Assembly: GCA_903916735.1 (NCBI GenBank)
Contig: CAIWXX010000096.1
Coordinates: 1 to 64,000, forward strand
DNA length: 64,000 nt
Source: an uncultured Acidobacteriota bacterium
GTDB lineage: Bacteria; Acidobacteriota; CAIWXX01
Direction of reading: 5' to 3'
The translations under genes and the position numbers were made by a program. Below are positions 10,552 through 63,174 of the stretch, in pieces; the first letter of the stretch is position 1, and every line of letters starts with the position of its first letter. The notes below the pieces were generated by a model. That model had not been told where the DNA came from and searched no databases. It was given only the letters and a program-made list of their open reading frames with translations.

Positions 10552-11211
10552 ATGGGCCAGAAAGTACATCCGTACGGGTTCAGGCTCGGGTACAACAAAA
10601 CCTGGCGTTCGCGATGGTTTGCGAAGAAAGAGTATGCCAATCTTCTTCACGAGGACATTCGCATGCGCCGGATGATCAAAGAGCGGTTCCAGCACGCTGG
10701 CGTATCGGATGTCGAGATCGAGCGGGGCGGGAACAACAAGGTGAGAGTTCTCATTCACACGGCGCGTCCCGGGATCGTCATCGGGAAAAAGGGGCAGGAG
10801 CTCGATAAACTCCGCGCCGACCTCCAGAAGGTTTTCCAGCGCGAAGTCGTTGTCGGGATCCACGAAGTGGACAAGCCCGAGTTGAACGCGCAGCTGATCG
10901 CCGAGAACATCGCCTTGCAGCTGAAAATGCGAGTCGCCTTTCGCCGCGCGATGAGGAAGGCAGTCGAAACGACGCATAAATTCGGAGCGCGCGGAATCAA
11001 GGTGCGCTGTTCCGGTCGTCTGAACGGAGCGGAAATCGCCCGTGCTGAATGGTATCTCCAGGGTCGGCTTCCGCTGCACACACTCAAGGCTGACATTGAT
11101 TACGGCTTCGATGAAGCATTCACAACATACGGACAGATTGGCGTAAAAGTGTGGGTCTACCGTACCGATGTGCTCAAGAGACCGTTCAAGAAGGCGGAAG
11201 TCGAGGCGTAG
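10552..11211 (+). CDS. rpsC: 30S ribosomal protein S3
   Basis: A 219-residue S3 protein at the mRNA entry channel. It starts [20 protein letters not shown], has the KH-domain GxxG loop in [18 protein letters not shown], and has the C-terminal domain with [17 protein letters not shown]. The acidic/basic C-terminal tail found in some species is short here. It starts two bases after rplV. Confidence 0.98.
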
Positions 11212-11236
11212 AGCCTGATCTGGGAGAAACGAAGCC

Positions 11237-11662
11237 ATGTTGATGCCGAAGAAAGTGAAGTACCGCAAGCAACAGCGCGGGCGTATGCGCGGAAAAGCGT
11301 GGCGCGGCAGTCTGGTCTCCTTCGGGGATTACGGCTTGCAGGCGCTGGAGTGCGGCTGGATGTCCGACCGCCAGATCGAAGCTGGCCGAATAGCCATGAC
11401 GCGTTTCGTGAAGCGCGGTGGGAAGATCTGGATCCGCGTCTTCCCCGACAAGCCGATCACCAAAAAACCGGCTGAAACCCGCATGGGAAAAGGCAAAGGG
11501 GCGCCGGAGGGTTGGGTGGCGGTGGTTCGTCCGGGCAAGGTCCTGTTCGAGATGGAAGGTGTCTCAGAGGAAATAGCCCGGGAAGCCATGCGGCTCGCAG
11601 GCCATAAAATATCGATGCGCACACGCTTCGTGATGCGCTTTGGCCAGGAGACCCAGAAATGA
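11237..11662 (+). CDS. rplP: 50S ribosomal protein L16
   Basis: A 141-residue L16 protein near the A and P tRNA sites. [20 protein letters not shown] is the canonical start, and [20 protein letters not shown] and [12 protein letters not shown] are the conserved core. Its stop codon overlaps the rpmC start (ATGA). Confidence 0.97.
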
Positions 11663-11853
11663 AAATCCAAAAAGCTCGAGAACTGCAGGGTGACGAGATT
11701 GGCCTGAAAATTGATGAAATTCAAGCACAACTGTTCAAGCTCCGCATTCAGCAGTCGATCGGCCAGGAAACCAATCCGATGAAGGTGCGGAGCCTTCGGA
11801 AAGATATCGCCCGGTTGAAGACGGTTCGAGCCGAGCAGGCACAGAAGGAATAG
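11659..11853 (+). CDS. rpmC: 50S ribosomal protein L29
   Basis: A 64-residue L29 protein next to the tunnel exit. It is two long helices with the expected [20 protein letters not shown] and [16 protein letters not shown] pattern. It overlaps rplP by four bases and precedes rpsQ by 12. Confidence 0.94.
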
Positions 11854-11865
11854 GAGCTGCTGACG

Positions 11866-12114
11866 ATGGGGACGAAGGCATCGAAAGTCGGAACGGTAAT
11901 TTCCAACAAGATGATGAAGACTGTGACCGTAGCCGTCGAGCGCAAAGTCCGGCACCCGCTCTATGGCAAGGTCATAAAGAAAACGAAAAAATTTCTCGCG
12001 CATGATGAGAGTCAAAGCGCGAAAGTAGGCGATGTAGTGTTGATCGAGGAAACCAAGCCGCTCAGCAAGCTGAAGCGGTGGCGTGTCCGCGAAGTGATTG
12101 TCCAGTCGAAGTAG
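11866..12114 (+). CDS. rpsQ: 30S ribosomal protein S17
   Basis: An 82-residue S17 OB-fold protein that binds 16S rRNA early in assembly. It has [39 protein letters not shown] and the [14 protein letters not shown] end typical of the family. Normal length and position. Confidence 0.97.
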
Positions 12115-12142
12115 CGGTCCGGCCGTCACGGGAGAATAAGTC

Positions 12143-12511
12143 ATGATTCAGATGAGAACGATCCTGGAGGTAGCCGATAACTCCGGGGCCAAAAAGATCA
12201 GTTGCATTCTGCCAATCGGGGGGAGCGTCGGCCATATCGCCTCCCTCGGCGACATCATCACGGCGAACGTGCGCGAAGCCGCTCCAGACAGCGAGATTAA
12301 AAAGGGCAAGGTTGTCAAGGCGGTCATCGTGAGAACACGTAAAGAAGTACGCCGCCGCGATGGATCTTACATCCGTTTCGACCAGAACGCTGCGGTGCTC
12401 ATCAATGAGCAGAAGGAGCCGATCGGCAACCGCGTGTTTGGACCGGTCGCACGGGAATTGCGCGAGCGCAAGTTCATGAAGATCATCTCGCTCGCCCCGG
12501 AAGTTCTCTAG
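12143..12511 (+). CDS. rplN: 50S ribosomal protein L14
   Basis: A 122-residue L14 protein at the subunit interface. It starts [20 protein letters not shown] and contains [20 protein letters not shown] and [20 protein letters not shown]. Its length matches the family exactly. Confidence 0.98.
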
Positions 12512-12529
12512 GAGCAAGGAAGGGCACTC

Positions 12530-12859
12530 ATGGGCTCGATATTCGAGATCAGAAGGAATGACACGGTTCAGGTGATTACCGGTCGCGATAAGAGCAAGCA
12601 GGGCAAGGTGCTGAAGTTGCTGACGGCGCGAGATCGAGTCGTTGTAGAAGGCATCAACATGGTAAAACGCTCACAACGCCCCAATCCCTCGCGCAACATC
12701 AAGGGGGGGATCCTCGAGAAGGAGTCGCCGATCCATATCAGCAACATCATGCTGGTGTGCCCGGAATGTCAGAAGATTACCCGCATCGGCCACAGGATCC
12801 TTGACGACGGCACTCGGCAGCGTATCTGCCGTCGTTGCCATTCAACTCTGGAGAAGTAG
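12530..12859 (+). CDS. rplX: 50S ribosomal protein L24
   Basis: A 109-residue L24 assembly-initiator protein with a KOW motif (VQVITGRDKSKQGKVLKLL) and VEGINMVKRSQRPNPSRNIK. The C-terminal part carries CPECQ and CRRCH pairs, a zinc-ribbon-like knuckle present in many bacterial L24 proteins. Confidence 0.97.
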   Translation: MGSIFEIRRNDTVQVITGRDKSKQGKVLKLLTARDRVVVEGINMVKRSQRPNPSRNIKGGILEKESPIHISNIMLVCPECQKITRIGHRILDDGTRQRICRRCHSTLEK

Positions 12860-49087: not shown

Positions 49088-50428
49088 ATGAATTATCCAT
49101 TAATCAGGACGGCTTTACCGGGACCTAAAGCGAAAGCCCTCATCGAGAGGGATAAACTGCATGTTTCTTCTTCATACACCCGCGATTATCCGCTCGTCGC
49201 GCACAAGGGGCGGGGGATACTCGTGGAGGATCCTGACGGGAATGTTTTTCTGGACATGGCGGCCGGCATCGCCGTGACATCCACAGGGCATTGCCACCCG
49301 AAAATTGTAGCGGCCATCAAGCGCCAGGCTTCTCAACTGATTCACATGTCCGGCACTGATTTCTACTACCAGCCGCAGGTGGAACTAGCCGAGCAACTCT
49401 CGAAACTTGCTCCCGGCAAACTCACCAAGAAAGTCTTCTTCGGCAACTCCGGAGCCGAGGCTGTCGAAGCCGCCATGAAGCTGTCGCGTTATTATACGCG
49501 GCGGATGCAATTTATTTCTTTTCTCGGCGCTTTTCATGGACGGACCTTCGGGGCGATGTCGCTGACGGCGAGCAAGGTCATACAGAAGCGCTCCTATGGA
49601 CCGCTAGTGCCGGGTGTCACTCACGTGCCTTATGCATATTGCTATCGATGCCCCTATGGGAAAGAGGTTGACACGTGCGATACCGAGTGCGTCTGTTTCA
49701 TCCGAGAAATCCTGTTTTCCAAAACAGTGCCTCCTGAAGAAGTGGCCGCCATTTTTGTTGAGCCGATCCAGGGGGAGGGCGGATACGTTGTCCCGCCGGA
49801 GAAATTCCATAAGGCTCTCAGGAAACTCACTTCCGAGTTCGACATCCTCTTTGTCGCGGATGAAGTTCAATCGGGGATGGGACGGACTGGCAAAATGTTT
49901 GCGATCGAGCATTTCGGCGTTGTCCCCGATATCATCGCCCTCGCCAAGGGCATCGCATCGGGTATGCCCTTGGGGGTCATCATCGCCCCGGGGAAGATTA
50001 TGCGATGGGAACCGGGTGCCCACGCATCGACATTCGGCGGTAATCCGATCAGTTGTGCTGCCGCCGTTGAAACGATCAACCTTCTCACCGACAAGCTGAT
50101 TCAGAATGCTGCCCGTATCGGTGATTACATGCTCGAACGGCTGCGCCAGATGCAGGAAAAGCATCCGCTGATTGGGGACGTGCGCGGCAAGGGGCTCATG
50201 ATCGGCGTCGAAATGGTCATGGATCGCGAGACGAAGGAACGGGCCAGGAAGGAACGCGGCGCCATCGTCGATACATGCTTCCGCAAAGGACTGTTGATGC
50301 TGGGTTGCGGAGATTGCTCGGTTCGGTTTTGCCCGCCGCTCGTCATCACGAAGCCTCAAGCGGAGAGGGCTCTGGAGCTTTTCGAAGAGGCATTGTCGGA
50401 AGTCGAGAAGAAATTCGGATACGCGTGA
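49088..50428 (+). CDS. Class III (acetylornithine/4-aminobutyrate-type) PLP aminotransferase
   Basis: 446 residues, fold type I. The PLP-binding regions are NSGAEAVEAAMKLSRYYT, FLGAFHGRTFGAMSLTAS, VADEVQSGMGRTGKMFA and PDIIALAKGIASGMPLG with the Schiff-base lysine. A Cys-rich insertion (CYRCPYGKEVDTCDTECVCF, about 196-215) occurs in a subgroup near archaeal GABA aminotransferases and broad-range amino acid racemases, so ordinary ArgD activity is not certain. It is cotranscribed with cysS (three-base gap) and overlaps yraN. Confidence 0.88.
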   Translation: MNYPLIRTALPGPKAKALIERDKLHVSSSYTRDYPLVAHKGRGILVEDPDGNVFLDMAAGIAVTSTGHCHPKIVAAIKRQASQLIHMSGTDFYYQPQVELAEQLSKLAPGKLTKKVFFGNSGAEAVEAAMKLSRYYTRRMQFISFLGAFHGRTFGAMSLTASKVIQKRSYGPLVPGVTHVPYAYCYRCPYGKEVDTCDTECVCFIREILFSKTVPPEEVAAIFVEPIQGEGGYVVPPEKFHKALRKLTSEFDILFVADEVQSGMGRTGKMFAIEHFGVVPDIIALAKGIASGMPLGVIIAPGKIMRWEPGAHASTFGGNPISCAAAVETINLLTDKLIQNAARIGDYMLERLRQMQEKHPLIGDVRGKGLMIGVEMVMDRETKERARKERGAIVDTCFRKGLLMLGCGDCSVRFCPPLVITKPQAERALELFEEALSEVEKKFGYA

Positions 50429-56667: not shown

Positions 56668-59238
56668 CTAATTCGGATGATGGAACGGCCATTGTTCCGG
56701 AGATCTTACATCCTTGCCTGCTCTGCCGGTGCTCTGGACACCGCCATTCAACATCTGCTGAAGAAAATTCTGCGCCAGCCCGTTGCCGGGGTCGAGGTGC
56801 AATGCATCTTGAGTTTTTCGAAGGCTCTGGTTCAACAACATCTTGCGAGAGGCCGCATCGGTCATTTCGACTGCTGTGACGGCCTGCGAAAGCGCGTCGA
56901 GAATGAGAAGATTCGAGCGACGAGATCTCTCCCACAGCGGCGCATCGGACCCCATAATGGGGATGTTGCCGATAGACGCATGCCTGAGCAATTCGGACAA
57001 CGTGTCGATTGGTGTACCTCGCCGTCGTCGGTCGGGGCTGAAGAACTCAACCCAAGGGCAATCATCTGTCATCGAGAGCGCATTGCCGGCGTAGGAGGCG
57101 AGGCCATCGGACGAGACCAAAAAGGATCCGATGATATCTTCGACGCGCCCGCAAGCCAGAGCGGCAAGTTCCTCATGGACTCTCGGACGCCTGCAGGCTT
57201 CTGAAATCCCCGCCGGATCGAGTGGGCCTGGTGCAGCAACCAAGAAGACGGTCGACCCTTGATAGACGAATATCATACCCAGTGGGAACACATCCAGAAA
57301 GGTTCTGATCAGGCCCGGGCCATCTGAAGGAGCCATCCCATGAAGTGGCAGCCATTGAACGTATGCGCCCATGGGGCTCAGACAACGCCGGACACCTTGA
57401 TAGAACTCACGCGAAAAGAGATTCGCTGTGCCGGCCATGCAGGGAAGTGGAGGTTCGGAGATGATGATATCGTACCGAGCCGTTGCGGCGTCGAGCCATG
57501 CTTTCGCATCATCATAGACAACATGAATACGCGGACGGACCGGCGGATGTTGGAGGAGACCCATGTTCACGGCTTGGAGCTGTGCGGACGCATCGGTGAC
57601 ATCACGTGATATTTCGATGATATCGATTGTGTCGAGAGGATGGCACGCCATCGCGGCCGCACTCGTCCCAGTGCCAAATCCAATCACCGCTCCCGTATGA
57701 GCTCGTGGCACGAGAAGCGCCGGCAGATGACCGAGCAAACGCATGTATCCATACCCCGGTCCCGCCCCAGCCATTTGAAAACTATCCACATAAAGTATGG
57801 AACCACGATAGTCGGGGTAATCTACTATCGCGACGGTGCAGGTCGCGCCTTCGCGGTAATATCGCATCACTGCCTTGCTTTCGAAGAGATGGTGTCGAAC
57901 AGCCACGGGAATCGAGAGGTGTGTCGTCAAGGCAATGACGACGATGATACCGATTGCGCTCAGCGCCGTGTACGTCCTCCGACAGAGGAGGGTTGTGCAT
58001 GCCAGAAGCAGACTGATCATCACAATGACCCACGAAAAGCGCCCGATTTGGGGGATCAGGATAAAGGTGGCGAGAGGAGCACCGATCATCGCGCCGATAG
58101 TATTCCAGAGATAGACACGAGAGAGTGTATAGCCTGGTGGGAGAGATGCTCGCGACAATACATGAGCGGCAACGGGGATCATCGCCCCGCTGATGAAGCA
58201 TGCAGGGAACACCAGCCTGAAAACATCCCAAAATAGACGGGCGAGGTAGGAATACCATCCAACAGCGCCAAGCGCTTCCCCCGTATATCCGACGGGAGTT
58301 GCGAGCGACTGCATGTAGAGGACGGGCGCAATACAGGCGATCCCGAGGCTGGAGCATAGCAGGCCCAGGAGATCAAAAGGATCACGCACTCGATTGAGGA
58401 TGGGTGCGCAGACGGCGCTGCCGAGCGCGACGCTGCCGAGATAGACAACGAGAATCGCAGAGAAAGCATAGATTGTCGTGGCGACGACAGCCACAATGAT
58501 ACGCGTCCAGAGCACCTCCAGAGCGAGCATCGACAAGCCGGAGACGAAAACCACGAACAAGGCCCGACGTGTCTCTTTTTGAAAGACGTGCCCTGATATA
58601 TCGAAAGGACTCGGTTCAACCTGGGCATGTGGTTGTCTCGACATGACAAGTGCGATGATACCGATGATGAGACTGCCGATCACGGCAACATCAGCGGTGC
58701 CACGCAGACCGAGTCGAGCGATCCCATCGAACCCGGCCCATGCGGCTCCGGACATCGCGCCAACGGTATTCGCGGCATAGAGTATGGCAGCGCGGCGCCC
58801 AAGAGAACCAGCTCCTTCAGATGCCCGCCCTAAAGCCGGATAGGTGCCACCCATGAATGTAGCCGGGATGAGCAAGACCAGGAATGCCATGCAGAGCCGG
58901 CTGCCGACGAGCAACAGAGGATACGAAACCAAGTGCGGATAGAGGAGCCGTTGAGCCATCTGCACGAACATGATGAGAGTCGGTACGCATACAGCCCAAC
59001 AAGCGATGCCTATTTCCAGCCATGCGTACAACTTCAGAGGAGTGCGGGAATTGTCTGCATATCCACCGAACAAACGGCTGCCGAGAGCGAGGCCTGCCAT
59101 GAATGCCGCAAGGACGACAGCCATCGTATGACCGGCTGCCCCAAGTGTACTCGCCAACATGCGATTCCAGGCGACTTCATAAGCAAGCGCCGATGCACCG
59201 GAGACGAAATAAAGCGTCGCCAGAATCCGCACTTTCAT
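56668..59238 (-). CDS. Membrane-fused spermidine-synthase-like protein
   Basis: 856 residues. The N-terminal half has some 12 or more membrane helices in two related blocks (YFVSGASALAYEVAWNRMLA near residue 10, FVSGLSMLALEVLWTRIIVA near 225). The second half is a spermine/spermidine synthase-like methyltransferase-fold domain with GAVIGFGTGTSAAAM as nucleotide-binding loop and DIIISEPPLP as the later acidic motif. The C-terminal 80 residues are helical (SLRKTQDALHLDPGNGLAQN, TPR-like). Fusions of this kind are common in uncultivated bacteria and have no established reaction, so aminopropyl transfer is not shown. Confidence 0.85.
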   Translation of the reverse strand: MKVRILATLYFVSGASALAYEVAWNRMLASTLGAAGHTMAVVLAAFMAGLALGSRLFGGYADNSRTPLKLYAWLEIGIACWAVCVPTLIMFVQMAQRLLYPHLVSYPLLLVGSRLCMAFLVLLIPATFMGGTYPALGRASEGAGSLGRRAAILYAANTVGAMSGAAWAGFDGIARLGLRGTADVAVIGSLIIGIIALVMSRQPHAQVEPSPFDISGHVFQKETRRALFVVFVSGLSMLALEVLWTRIIVAVVATTIYAFSAILVVYLGSVALGSAVCAPILNRVRDPFDLLGLLCSSLGIACIAPVLYMQSLATPVGYTGEALGAVGWYSYLARLFWDVFRLVFPACFISGAMIPVAAHVLSRASLPPGYTLSRVYLWNTIGAMIGAPLATFILIPQIGRFSWVIVMISLLLACTTLLCRRTYTALSAIGIIVVIALTTHLSIPVAVRHHLFESKAVMRYYREGATCTVAIVDYPDYRGSILYVDSFQMAGAGPGYGYMRLLGHLPALLVPRAHTGAVIGFGTGTSAAAMACHPLDTIDIIEISRDVTDASAQLQAVNMGLLQHPPVRPRIHVVYDDAKAWLDAATARYDIIISEPPLPCMAGTANLFSREFYQGVRRCLSPMGAYVQWLPLHGMAPSDGPGLIRTFLDVFPLGMIFVYQGSTVFLVAAPGPLDPAGISEACRRPRVHEELAALACGRVEDIIGSFLVSSDGLASYAGNALSMTDDCPWVEFFSPDRRRRGTPIDTLSELLRHASIGNIPIMGSDAPLWERSRRSNLLILDALSQAVTAVEMTDAASRKMLLNQSLRKTQDALHLDPGNGLAQNFLQQMLNGGVQSTGRAGKDVRSPEQWPFHHPN

Positions 59239-59424: not shown

Positions 59425-59664
59425 GGGGCCATGTTACATAAAATCATATCAAGTTTCATTCGTGAAAAGAATAAAGTTATCCTCGTTTTCCAATTTCTGG
59501 AACATGAAAAAGCTTTCTATTGAAAGTGCCACGATTGATATCCGTCATTCCTACCTGCGAAATTCCGACTTTTCATATTAGAGGCATTTCTCGTTGACAG
59601 TCTCTGATCCATTCTGCTATTTTGCCGAAGGTCCGGATGAAGGGCGGGATTCTCGATTTCAGAA

Positions 59665-60723
59665 ATGATCGAACTCACCGATGTTGTCAAGGAGTTCGAC
59701 GGCGTCCGCGTTGTCGATCTCATCGAACTGAAGATTAAGCAGGGCGAATTTCTCACTTTTCTCGGCCCGCGCGATTCCGGCAAGACTACGATTCTACGAT
59801 TGATGGCCGGCTTTGATTATCCGACCTCAGGCCGGATTGTTATTGAAGGGCGCGATTCAACTCACGATCTGCCGCATCACCGTAACGTCCATATGATCGG
59901 CAGCGGCCCTTCGCTTTTCCCTCACATGACGGTTGCCGAAAACGTAGCCTTCGGTCTGCGGCTTAGAAAGCAGACCACTTCGGAAATAGAGCCGAAAGTC
60001 AACGACGTCCTGAAACTCCTGCATCTTAACGAATTCGCCGGGCGCATGCCGAAACAGCTTACTCGAAGCCAGCAGCAGCAAGCGGCAATCGCGCGCGCGC
60101 TCGTCCTCCATCCTGCCGCTCTTCTCCTCGATGAACCACTCGGCTCGCTGGATATTAAGGTGCGAAAGCAGATGCAAATGGAATTGAAGCATCTCCAGAT
60201 GAAACTCGGCATAGCTTTTATTTATGCGACTCGCGATCCTGAAGAATCGCTCATCATGTCCGATAGAATCGCCGTGATCATCCAAGGGCGCTTGGTTCAG
60301 ATCGGGCGCGCGGCTGAGATTTATGATCGGCCCGCGACCAGCCACGTCGCTGGCCTCATTGGTGAGACCAATCTGATCCAAGGGCGGATTGAATTCATAG
60401 GACGCAATGAAGCCACACTCCGACGCGGGGATTTTTTAGTGGCGGTCCATCGAGTTCAGGGTCTGGAACATGGATGCGATGCTTTTCTATCTGTCCGCCC
60501 CGAGAGAGTCTGGTTTTCGACGGGTGTCTCTCACAAATCCTTTCGGGGGGTTCTCAAAGAGAAGATCGATATCGGGTCTACCGTGAAATTGATCGTTGAA
60601 ACTCCCGGCATCGAAACCATGATCATTTCAACGCAGGATCGTGAATCCGCGAGCCTCGTGAGCCCCGGAGATACTCTCAACTTTGGCTGGGATGCCCAGG
60701 ATGGGCATCTCCTTCTCGGCTAG
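59665..60723 (+). CDS. Orphan PotA/MalK-like ABC ATPase with degenerate catalytic motifs
   Basis: 352 residues, with an ATPase domain and then a TOBE-type C-terminal domain. Walker A (GPRDSGKTT, 34-42) and Walker B with its glutamate (LLLDEPLGSLD, 153-163) are intact. The signature is LTRSQ (132-136) instead of LSGGQ. The Q-loop glutamine position is S80 in MIGSGPSLFPHMTV, and the H-loop histidine is R190 in IYATRDPEE. In family members the signature and H-loop contact and help hydrolyse ATP across the dimer. No permease or binding protein is adjacent. It may be a regulatory or non-canonical ATPase, and the frame is intact throughout. Confidence 0.88.
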   Translation: MIELTDVVKEFDGVRVVDLIELKIKQGEFLTFLGPRDSGKTTILRLMAGFDYPTSGRIVIEGRDSTHDLPHHRNVHMIGSGPSLFPHMTVAENVAFGLRLRKQTTSEIEPKVNDVLKLLHLNEFAGRMPKQLTRSQQQQAAIARALVLHPAALLLDEPLGSLDIKVRKQMQMELKHLQMKLGIAFIYATRDPEESLIMSDRIAVIIQGRLVQIGRAAEIYDRPATSHVAGLIGETNLIQGRIEFIGRNEATLRRGDFLVAVHRVQGLEHGCDAFLSVRPERVWFSTGVSHKSFRGVLKEKIDIGSTVKLIVETPGIETMIISTQDRESASLVSPGDTLNFGWDAQDGHLLLG

Positions 60724-61083: not shown

Positions 61084-63174
61084 ATGAGTTCTAACGATAT
61101 CATACCCGGTGCAAGTTTCCCGCTCGGGGCGACGGTCATCTCCGGCGGAGTTAACTTTAGTGTTTTTTCCAGGAATGCCACATCAGTCGAACTGCTCCTC
61201 TTTGAATGTGAAGCTGATGCTCCGGTACGCCTCATCAGCCTTTCTCGTCACATGTATTGCACTTCTCACTACTGGCACATTTTTGTGCCGGGGATCCGGC
61301 CTGGCCAGATTTATGGATATCGAGTTGAGGGGCCTTCTGAAAAACACAAAGGATACGGGTTCGACTCTACAAAGGTTCTTCTCGATCCCTATGGACTCGC
61401 AGTTGTCGTCCCCAGAGATTACAGCCGATTGATGGCGAGCCGCCCGGGCGACAACATAGCGGGCGCGATGAAGAGTGTCGTGGTAGATCCGGAGCTTTAT
61501 CAATGGGAAGGCGATACTCCATTGAGGCGTCCATTCTCAAAAACAATCATCTACGAGATGCATGTCGGGGGATTTACGCGTCATGAGAGTTCGGGTGTGG
61601 CTCCCTCTAAGCGTGGCACTTACACGGGGCTGATTGAAAAGATACCCTATTTGAAAGACCTTGGGATCACTGCCGTAGAACTGCTTCCTATTTTTCAATT
61701 CGATGAACAGGATGGCCCTCCAGGCCTTGCGAATTACTGGGGCTACAGCCCGGTTTCCTTTTTCGCTCCACACGCAGCCTATAGTTCTCGCAAGGATCCG
61801 CTTGGCCCCTTGGACGAATTCCGTGATTTGGTCAAAGCGCTCCATCGCGCCGGGATCGAAATTCTCCTTGATGTAGTCTATAACCATACCGCTGAAGGCG
61901 GCCAGGACGGGCCGACACTCTGTTTTAAAGGCTTTGCAAATGATGTCTACTACATCATGGACGAAGACCGGATGCACTATGCTGATTTCGCCGGCACCGG
62001 CAACACACTCAACGCTAATCAGCCGATTGTCCGTCGCATGATCCTCGACAGCCTTCATTATTGGGTCGAGCAGATGCATGTGGACGGTTTTCGTTTTGAC
62101 CTGGCGTCTATCTTGTCGCGCGATGAATCCGGCCGGCCGATGGAGAATCCACCTGTTATTTGGGACATCGATTCTGATCCGGTCCTGGCCGGAATTAAGC
62201 TCATCGCTGAAGCGTGGGATGCAGCCGGCCTTTACCAGGTTGGCAGTTTTGTCGGGGACAACTGGAAAGAGTGGAATGGAAAATTCCGAGACGACGTTCG
62301 GAGCTTCTTCAGAGGCGACGAAGGTTCGGTCTCTCGAATCGCCACGCGAATGCTCGGCAGCCCCGATATTTTCGCTCATCAAGAACGAGAGCCGGAACTG
62401 AGCGTTAATTTCGTCACATGCCATGACGGGTTTACATTGAACGATCTCGTTTCCTACGATCACAAGCATAATGAGGCGAATGACGAAGATAATCGCGATG
62501 GAACAGATGAGAATCTGAGCTGGAACTGTGGCGTTGACGGCCTGACCATGGATGCCGAAATTCAGGAGCTTCGAAACCGACAGGCGAAGAATTTTTTGAC
62601 AGTGACGTTGCTTTCATTGGGCACGCCGATGCTCTTGATGGGTGACGAATTCCTCCGGACCCAGAATGGCAACAACAATGCGTACTGTCAGGATAATGAA
62701 ATCAGCTGGCTTGACTGGAGACTGCTGGATATCCACGATGATATCCTTCGTTTTACAAAGCAACTTATTGTTAGCCGTCTTCGCCGAGATAGCGTGGTAC
62801 CGGCGGAGAACTTGAGCCTCAACCAGATTTTGCAGCATGCACATTTTCAATGGCACGGCGTCCGCCTCGGTCAGCCCGATTGGAGCACTCATTCACACAG
62901 CCTTGCGGTATCCACTAGTAGCCGTGATGAGGCGCTTAGCTTTTACATGATGATGAATGCTTATTGGGAAGGACTCGAGTTTGAGCTCCCTCCAGCCGGC
63001 ATCGATGGCAGCCTTCACTGGCATCTATGGATTGATACCTTCCGTCAGACTCCCCATGATATCTGCTCATGGGTCGATGCGCCTTTGGTGGATTCATCAA
63101 TCTATTTCGTACAGCCTCGCTCAATAGTCGTTCTCATGACTGTTCTCAATAGGGAGGCATGTAAGAAGCCGTGA
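61084..63174 (+). CDS. glgX: Glycogen debranching enzyme (isoamylase type)
   Basis: 696 residues, a CBM48-like N-terminal domain then a GH13 catalytic barrel. Conserved regions are DVVYNHTAEGG, the nucleophile segment VDGFRFDLAS, the acid/base IAEAWDAAGLYQVG and NFVTCHDGFTLNDLVSY. It hydrolyses alpha-1,6 branches of limit dextrins from glycogen. No other glg gene is visible, but a phosphofructokinase follows 67 bases later, so glucose units could enter glycolysis. It starts after a T-run with no ribosome-binding site. Confidence 0.94.
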   Translation: MSSNDIIPGASFPLGATVISGGVNFSVFSRNATSVELLLFECEADAPVRLISLSRHMYCTSHYWHIFVPGIRPGQIYGYRVEGPSEKHKGYGFDSTKVLLDPYGLAVVVPRDYSRLMASRPGDNIAGAMKSVVVDPELYQWEGDTPLRRPFSKTIIYEMHVGGFTRHESSGVAPSKRGTYTGLIEKIPYLKDLGITAVELLPIFQFDEQDGPPGLANYWGYSPVSFFAPHAAYSSRKDPLGPLDEFRDLVKALHRAGIEILLDVVYNHTAEGGQDGPTLCFKGFANDVYYIMDEDRMHYADFAGTGNTLNANQPIVRRMILDSLHYWVEQMHVDGFRFDLASILSRDESGRPMENPPVIWDIDSDPVLAGIKLIAEAWDAAGLYQVGSFVGDNWKEWNGKFRDDVRSFFRGDEGSVSRIATRMLGSPDIFAHQEREPELSVNFVTCHDGFTLNDLVSYDHKHNEANDEDNRDGTDENLSWNCGVDGLTMDAEIQELRNRQAKNFLTVTLLSLGTPMLLMGDEFLRTQNGNNNAYCQDNEISWLDWRLLDIHDDILRFTKQLIVSRLRRDSVVPAENLSLNQILQHAHFQWHGVRLGQPDWSTHSHSLAVSTSSRDEALSFYMMMNAYWEGLEFELPPAGIDGSLHWHLWIDTFRQTPHDICSWVDAPLVDSSIYFVQPRSIVVLMTVLNREACKKP

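Follow-up and report, generated by a model that had tools for sequence, protein, structure and literature searches.

The window analysed here, a stretch of 64,000 nucleotides from an uncultured Acidobacteriota bacterium, carries a gene for an ABC ATPase of the PotA type that stands alone and in which several of the standard ATPase motifs are altered (hereafter the orphan). It raises the question of whether such a protein has been retained in a non-catalytic capacity or whether the gene is on its way to being lost. To our knowledge, pseudo-enzymes among importer ATPases have hardly been described, and the orphan offers a clear test case for a pseudo-ATPase regulator versus early decay: if it is retained, an orphaned transporter motor can persist after losing its catalytic motifs, and if it is decaying, it is an ordinary relic.

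The coordinates of the gene, its motifs and its surroundings are compiled in Table 1. The reading frame encodes 352 residues and is free of stops and frameshifts, as the sequence-only reading had stated, and not truncated, so that none of these three marks of a pseudogene is present. Pfam identifies an ABC_tran and a TOBE_2 domain, and the homology to PotA spans the full length of the protein, including NBD and TOBE_2. The best-scoring NCBIfam models are those of PotA, with scores below the curated cut-offs (311 of 482 bits for PRK09452 and 272 of 355.6 bits for TIGR01187). An AlphaFold2 model has a pLDDT of 93.7, a measure in which substitutions of the motif type are hardly sensed, and its best match in the PDB is E. 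coli PotA (8zx1, TM 0.91), with MalK matched as well.

Table 1. Features of the orphan gene and its surroundings, with positions counted from the first nucleotide of the window.
Feature	Position	Strand	Basis
Membrane protein with spermine/spermidine-synthase domain, 856 aa (divergent neighbour)	56668..59238	-	
Promoter TTGACA-18-TATTTT	59594..59623	+	common to orthologue upstream region
PotA-type ABC ATPase ORF (ABC_tran + TOBE_2)	59665..60723	+	Pfam, NCBIfam, AlphaFold2
Walker A GPRDSGKT (family GPSGCGKT): S36R, G37D; GKT kept	59764..59787	+	alignment
Q-loop segment HMIGSGPS (orthologue NTVFQSYA), Gln lost	59890..59913	+	alignment
Signature LTRSQQQQ (orthologue VSGGQQQR)	60058..60081	+	alignment
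Walker B ALLLDE, catalytic Glu157 kept	60118..60135	+	alignment
D-loop GSLD (orthologue GALD), Asp kept	60142..60153	+	alignment
H-loop ATRDPEES (orthologue VTHDQEEA): H190R, Q192P, A195S	60226..60249	+	alignment
C-terminal TOBE_2 regulatory domain	60487..60714	+	Pfam; well conserved vs orthologue
Isoamylase/GlgX-type glycosidase (downstream neighbour)	61084..63174	+	

The substitutions were assessed in an alignment with 93 PotA-like homologues containing 44 invariant columns. The orphan departs from the family at 14 of these (S36, G37, V78, F79, Q80, Y82, S133, G134, G135, R139, H190, Q192, A195 and F231) and its nearest orthologue at none. This comparison verifies the replacement of the Q-loop glutamine by serine (Q80S), the conversion of LSGGQ to LTRSQ and the exchange of the H-loop histidine for arginine, all of which had been read from the letters of the window, as well as the preservation of Walker B with its DE pair and the catalytic glutamate; Walker A, which had equally been described as kept, is intact in its GKT but changed in its variable residues. 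The alterations go beyond those listed at the time, in that the entire Q-loop is replaced (VFQSYA to IGSGPS), the exchange of SGG for TRS in the signature is followed by a change of Arg 139 to glutamine, Q192, A195 and F231 have changed, and the orthologue from the same family is canonical. Retained are the A-loop Phe, GKTT in Walker A, DEP in Walker B and the Asp of the D-loop, as are the TOBE landmarks and the coupling segment LFPHMTVAENVAFGL. We thus confirm that the gene encodes a full-length PotA-type ABC ATPase with altered catalytic motifs, which lacks the intact set of Walker A, Q-loop, LSGGQ, Walker B and H-loop of a PotA protein. A crude survey of motifs among the other ABC ATPases of the genome yielded no further protein of the PotA/MalK type that is altered likewise. 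A compensated frameshift as the source of the Q-loop block was considered and found unconvincing in a codon-by-codon inspection. The host genome (5.37 Mb, 98.7% complete, with the gene on contig 96) is a draft and probably metagenome-assembled, and its division into 183 contigs could point to an artefact of assembly or sequencing; with frame, codon usage and flanks all regular and with motif-specific changes that leave the frame intact, we regard this explanation as highly improbable.

The nearest orthologue, at 59% identity, belongs to another genus of the same family (genome G001; JACPPM01, Acidobacteria bacterium NC_groundwater_627), where potA heads an operon of potA-potB-potCD together with aminotransferase, aldehyde dehydrogenase and agmatinase-type genes. 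Our search of the window revealed no remnants of potB, potCD or the other operon genes beside the orphan. In searches of the whole assembly for PotB and PotD, the best PotB matches (41-45%) and the best PotD match (33%) all reside in two other Pot systems, on contigs 53 and 54, which are complete, canonical and equipped with their own PotA. Since the best matches belong to these two systems, the orthologous PotB and PotD appear to have been lost from the genome, and the earlier remark that no permease or binding protein accompanies the gene holds for the window, in the sense of partners of its own, and, for PotB and PotD orthologues, for the genome. As an observation apart, PotC and PotD are fused in one frame both in the contig-54 system (L188, 2711-4567, minus strand) and in the G001 operon (L014, 5174-7813, minus strand).

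The presence of two redundant Pot systems favours the view of a decaying transporter gene, in which potA became neutral after the loss of its permeases and by chance still lacks a stop or a frameshift. The same view gains from the distribution of the altered residues. A search of the contig collection with the single orphan protein gave no match, whereas the alignment of both orthologues recovered G001 as sole close relative, the next proteins being about 50% identical or less; searches at the level of genus, family, order and class returned this genome and G001 only, and besides G001 no match above 44% was contained in 297 genomes of the phylum. Among the genomes searched, no orthologue carries the substitutions of the orphan, an outcome that had been named beforehand, together with relaxed selection, as indicative of decay. 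Apart from the Q-loop, moreover, a single substitution separates most of the codons altered at invariant positions from a codon of the family residue, which also fits decay.

Selection was quantified with a codon model of three site classes applied to 15 sequences with our own script. The branch of the orphan is strongly relaxed (K = 0.22, LRT 46), which again speaks for decay, in comparison with K = 1.39 (LRT 2.3) on the branch of the G001 orthologue and values of 0.77-1.11 on four other branches, the lowest of them, 0.77 (LRT 7.3), being that of the contig-53 PotA of the same genome. A purifying phase followed by a fully neutral one describes the branch better than a constant K (-14340.6 versus -14345.1), also in favour of decay; in the two-phase model, neutral substitutions number 0.33 per codon or about 115 over the gene, and with the late neutral phase the total branch length of the orphan is nearly equal to that of its orthologue. 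If decay of this length were uniform, however, a frame free of stops would be expected with a probability of only about 0.05 (plausible range 0.015-0.15). Counting indels, at an assumed one per 10 or one per 20 substitutions, lowers the probability of an intact frame further. A model freeing only part of the sites has a small advantage in fit of about 2 log units.

The relaxation is strong overall, yet concentrated in the motifs. For this analysis, the 57 codons of the standard ABC motif blocks, which the sequence-only reading had named beforehand, were separated from the remainder of the gene. The neutral length amounts to about 0.7-1.0 per codon in the motif blocks and 0.10-0.15 elsewhere. 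Relaxation in the motifs thus exceeds that of the other codons about fivefold, and the rest of the protein is still constrained, the C-terminal domain fitting a neutral length of 0-0.4. Separate neutral lengths are preferred over a common one with an LRT of 22.1, and none of 230 circular shifts along the NBD was as extreme; on the branch of the orthologue, the same split reveals no motif-specific relaxation. Likewise, of the invariant columns, 13 of the 27 within motifs have changed and 1 of the 17 beyond them (Fisher p = 0.0035). Much of this signal comes from the Q-loop, where a single complex mutation may account for the entire block, and upon removal of this block the LRT falls to 7.7 and p rises to 0.024. 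The uneven relaxation speaks against uniform decay, a conclusion qualified by the fact that the motifs had been named in advance.

The upstream region and codon usage provide further evidence on this point. A consensus promoter had been proposed for the gene, and as a result of a pattern scan it is not above chance, with 3 occurrences found and 2.3 expected. What stands is its conservation: the orthologue carries TTGACA-17-TATCTT upstream, the element common to both regions consists of TTGACA followed by TGCTATYTTGCCG, and in an ungapped comparison 27 of the last 50 bases before the ATG are identical, a number reached in 0 of 20,000 shuffles. Because the same element is located at the same distance of 41 nt from the ATG of the orthologue, the promoter is probably real. 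The codon usage of the orphan is mid-range for the genome and, like the intact promoter, is at odds with decay. The claim that random decay is unlikely can thus be sustained in part: it is weakened by the lack of shared substitutions and the low K, and strengthened by relaxation that is concentrated in motifs while frame, codon usage and promoter are intact. On balance we favour a retained, non-catalytic protein, which we hold to be somewhat probable, over plain decay, which stays a serious if lesser possibility. The reading as a retained protein is based on one genome, with no close relative among the genomes searched.

Assuming retention, we propose that the orphan once served as the PotA subunit in a spermidine/putrescine importer, whose permeases and binding protein would have been lost, and that it would have been kept as an expressed and folded protein, while selection on its ATP-hydrolysis motifs was released, leaving it ATPase-dead or nearly so. 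Its preserved A-loop Phe, the GKT of Walker A and Walker B suggest that the orphan may still bind ATP, whereas the loss of the Q-loop Gln, the Ser/Gly/Gly of the signature and the H-loop His should abolish hydrolysis. As far as sequence can tell, there is good support for the early suggestion of a protein that might bind ATP with hardly any hydrolysis. H-loop mutants, among them HisP H211R with the equivalent exchange of His for Arg, keep less than 2% of ATPase activity (PMC6222333). This result, together with the concurrent loss of Q-loop, signature and H-loop, makes it very doubtful that the orphan is a still active, shared ATPase driving the permeases of the other Pot systems, which possess their own PotA, even though orphan NBDs serving several importers are known, as in case of the multitask ATPase MsmX that energises sugar importers (PMC7658222), and coupling-groove segment, Walker A GKT, Walker B and D-loop Asp are kept.

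With cis motifs and signature altered alike, the orphan would be unable to complete a good ATP site with a normal PotA, and a complex of the two should be inhibited; a non-catalytic or inhibitory role is for this reason suggested as the most consistent functional reading. Speculatively, and in line with the regulator proposed in the sequence-only reading, the retained protein could associate with the other Pot systems in a non-catalytic capacity and dampen or signal polyamine uptake, either by docking to permeases or PotA via its coupling segment or through its TOBE domain. More specifically, and with a probability that we consider low, a catalytically dead PotA-type subunit may have been selected after transporter loss to inhibit or sense in trans, in response to polyamines or ATP, with the remaining Pot systems or the divergent spermidine-synthase-like gene as target. 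In the literature on degenerate PotA proteins or ATPase-inactive orphan NBDs, we found nothing that matches.

Concerning the surroundings of the gene, a polyamine link between the orphan and the divergent spermidine-synthase-like gene is possible, and no functional link to the downstream GlgX-type gene was seen. The divergent membrane protein itself matches one other protein of the genome in two pieces. Liv-type ABC genes at about 50.5-55.4 kb constitute a separate system on the opposite strand to the orphan; near them, a class-III aminotransferase (49157-50404, plus strand) is 36% identical to the aminotransferase of the G001 potABCD operon. An Rfam scan of the window gave no match.

A different form of motif loss was observed in the pst operon of the same genome (contig 36), where two PstB genes are adjacent (11056-11823 and 11826-12683). 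The first, PstB-a, contains GPANSGKT, a Q-loop with Gln replaced by Ala (VGMIFALP) and an H-loop with His replaced by Asn (VTNN), next to an intact LSGGQ; the second, PstB-b, is canonical in Walker A, Q-loop and H-loop and has LSLEE in place of LSGGQ. This complementary tandem pattern recurs in 16 further genomes among the best matches, G001 included, hence in 17 genomes from six acidobacterial families counting this one (loci L191 on contig 36, L192-L195, L197-L204, L206-L209 and L219). Across the pairs, the changes of Gln to Ala and His to Asn and those of the signature are constant and that of Walker A is variable, with mostly GPA[N/R/K]SGK in PstB-a and signatures of the LSLEQ, LTGEQ or LSGEQ type in PstB-b. 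Such pairs are predicted to form a phosphate importer with one active ATP site, which would constitute an asymmetric importer conserved across several families of one phylum. A short literature search retrieved no description of a complementary PstB pair, and this finding is probably stronger than that of the orphan PotA.

The relation of the orphan to known systems can be summarized as follows. With E. coli PotA of the PotABCD system (PDB 8y5f/8zx1) it shares full-length homology, about 39% identity in a structural alignment and the fold of NBD and TOBE domain, from which it differs by the loss of Q-loop, signature and H-loop, the absence of PotB/C/D and scores below the curated PotA cut-offs. 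The PotA of G001 is its orthologue with the same promoter element, but has canonical motifs and is part of an operon. MsmX and MsmK are likewise orphan NBDs of the MalK/PotA kind, but their ATPase motifs are all intact and their activity has been shown (PMC7658222). Asymmetric ABC transporters such as TM287/288, BmrCD, RbsA and NupO resemble it in that one NBD has lost residues of its catalytic motifs; there, however, the partner NBD completes one canonical site, whereas the orphan is altered on both sides, its own signature included, and is not adjoined by an ABC gene for a complementary NBD.
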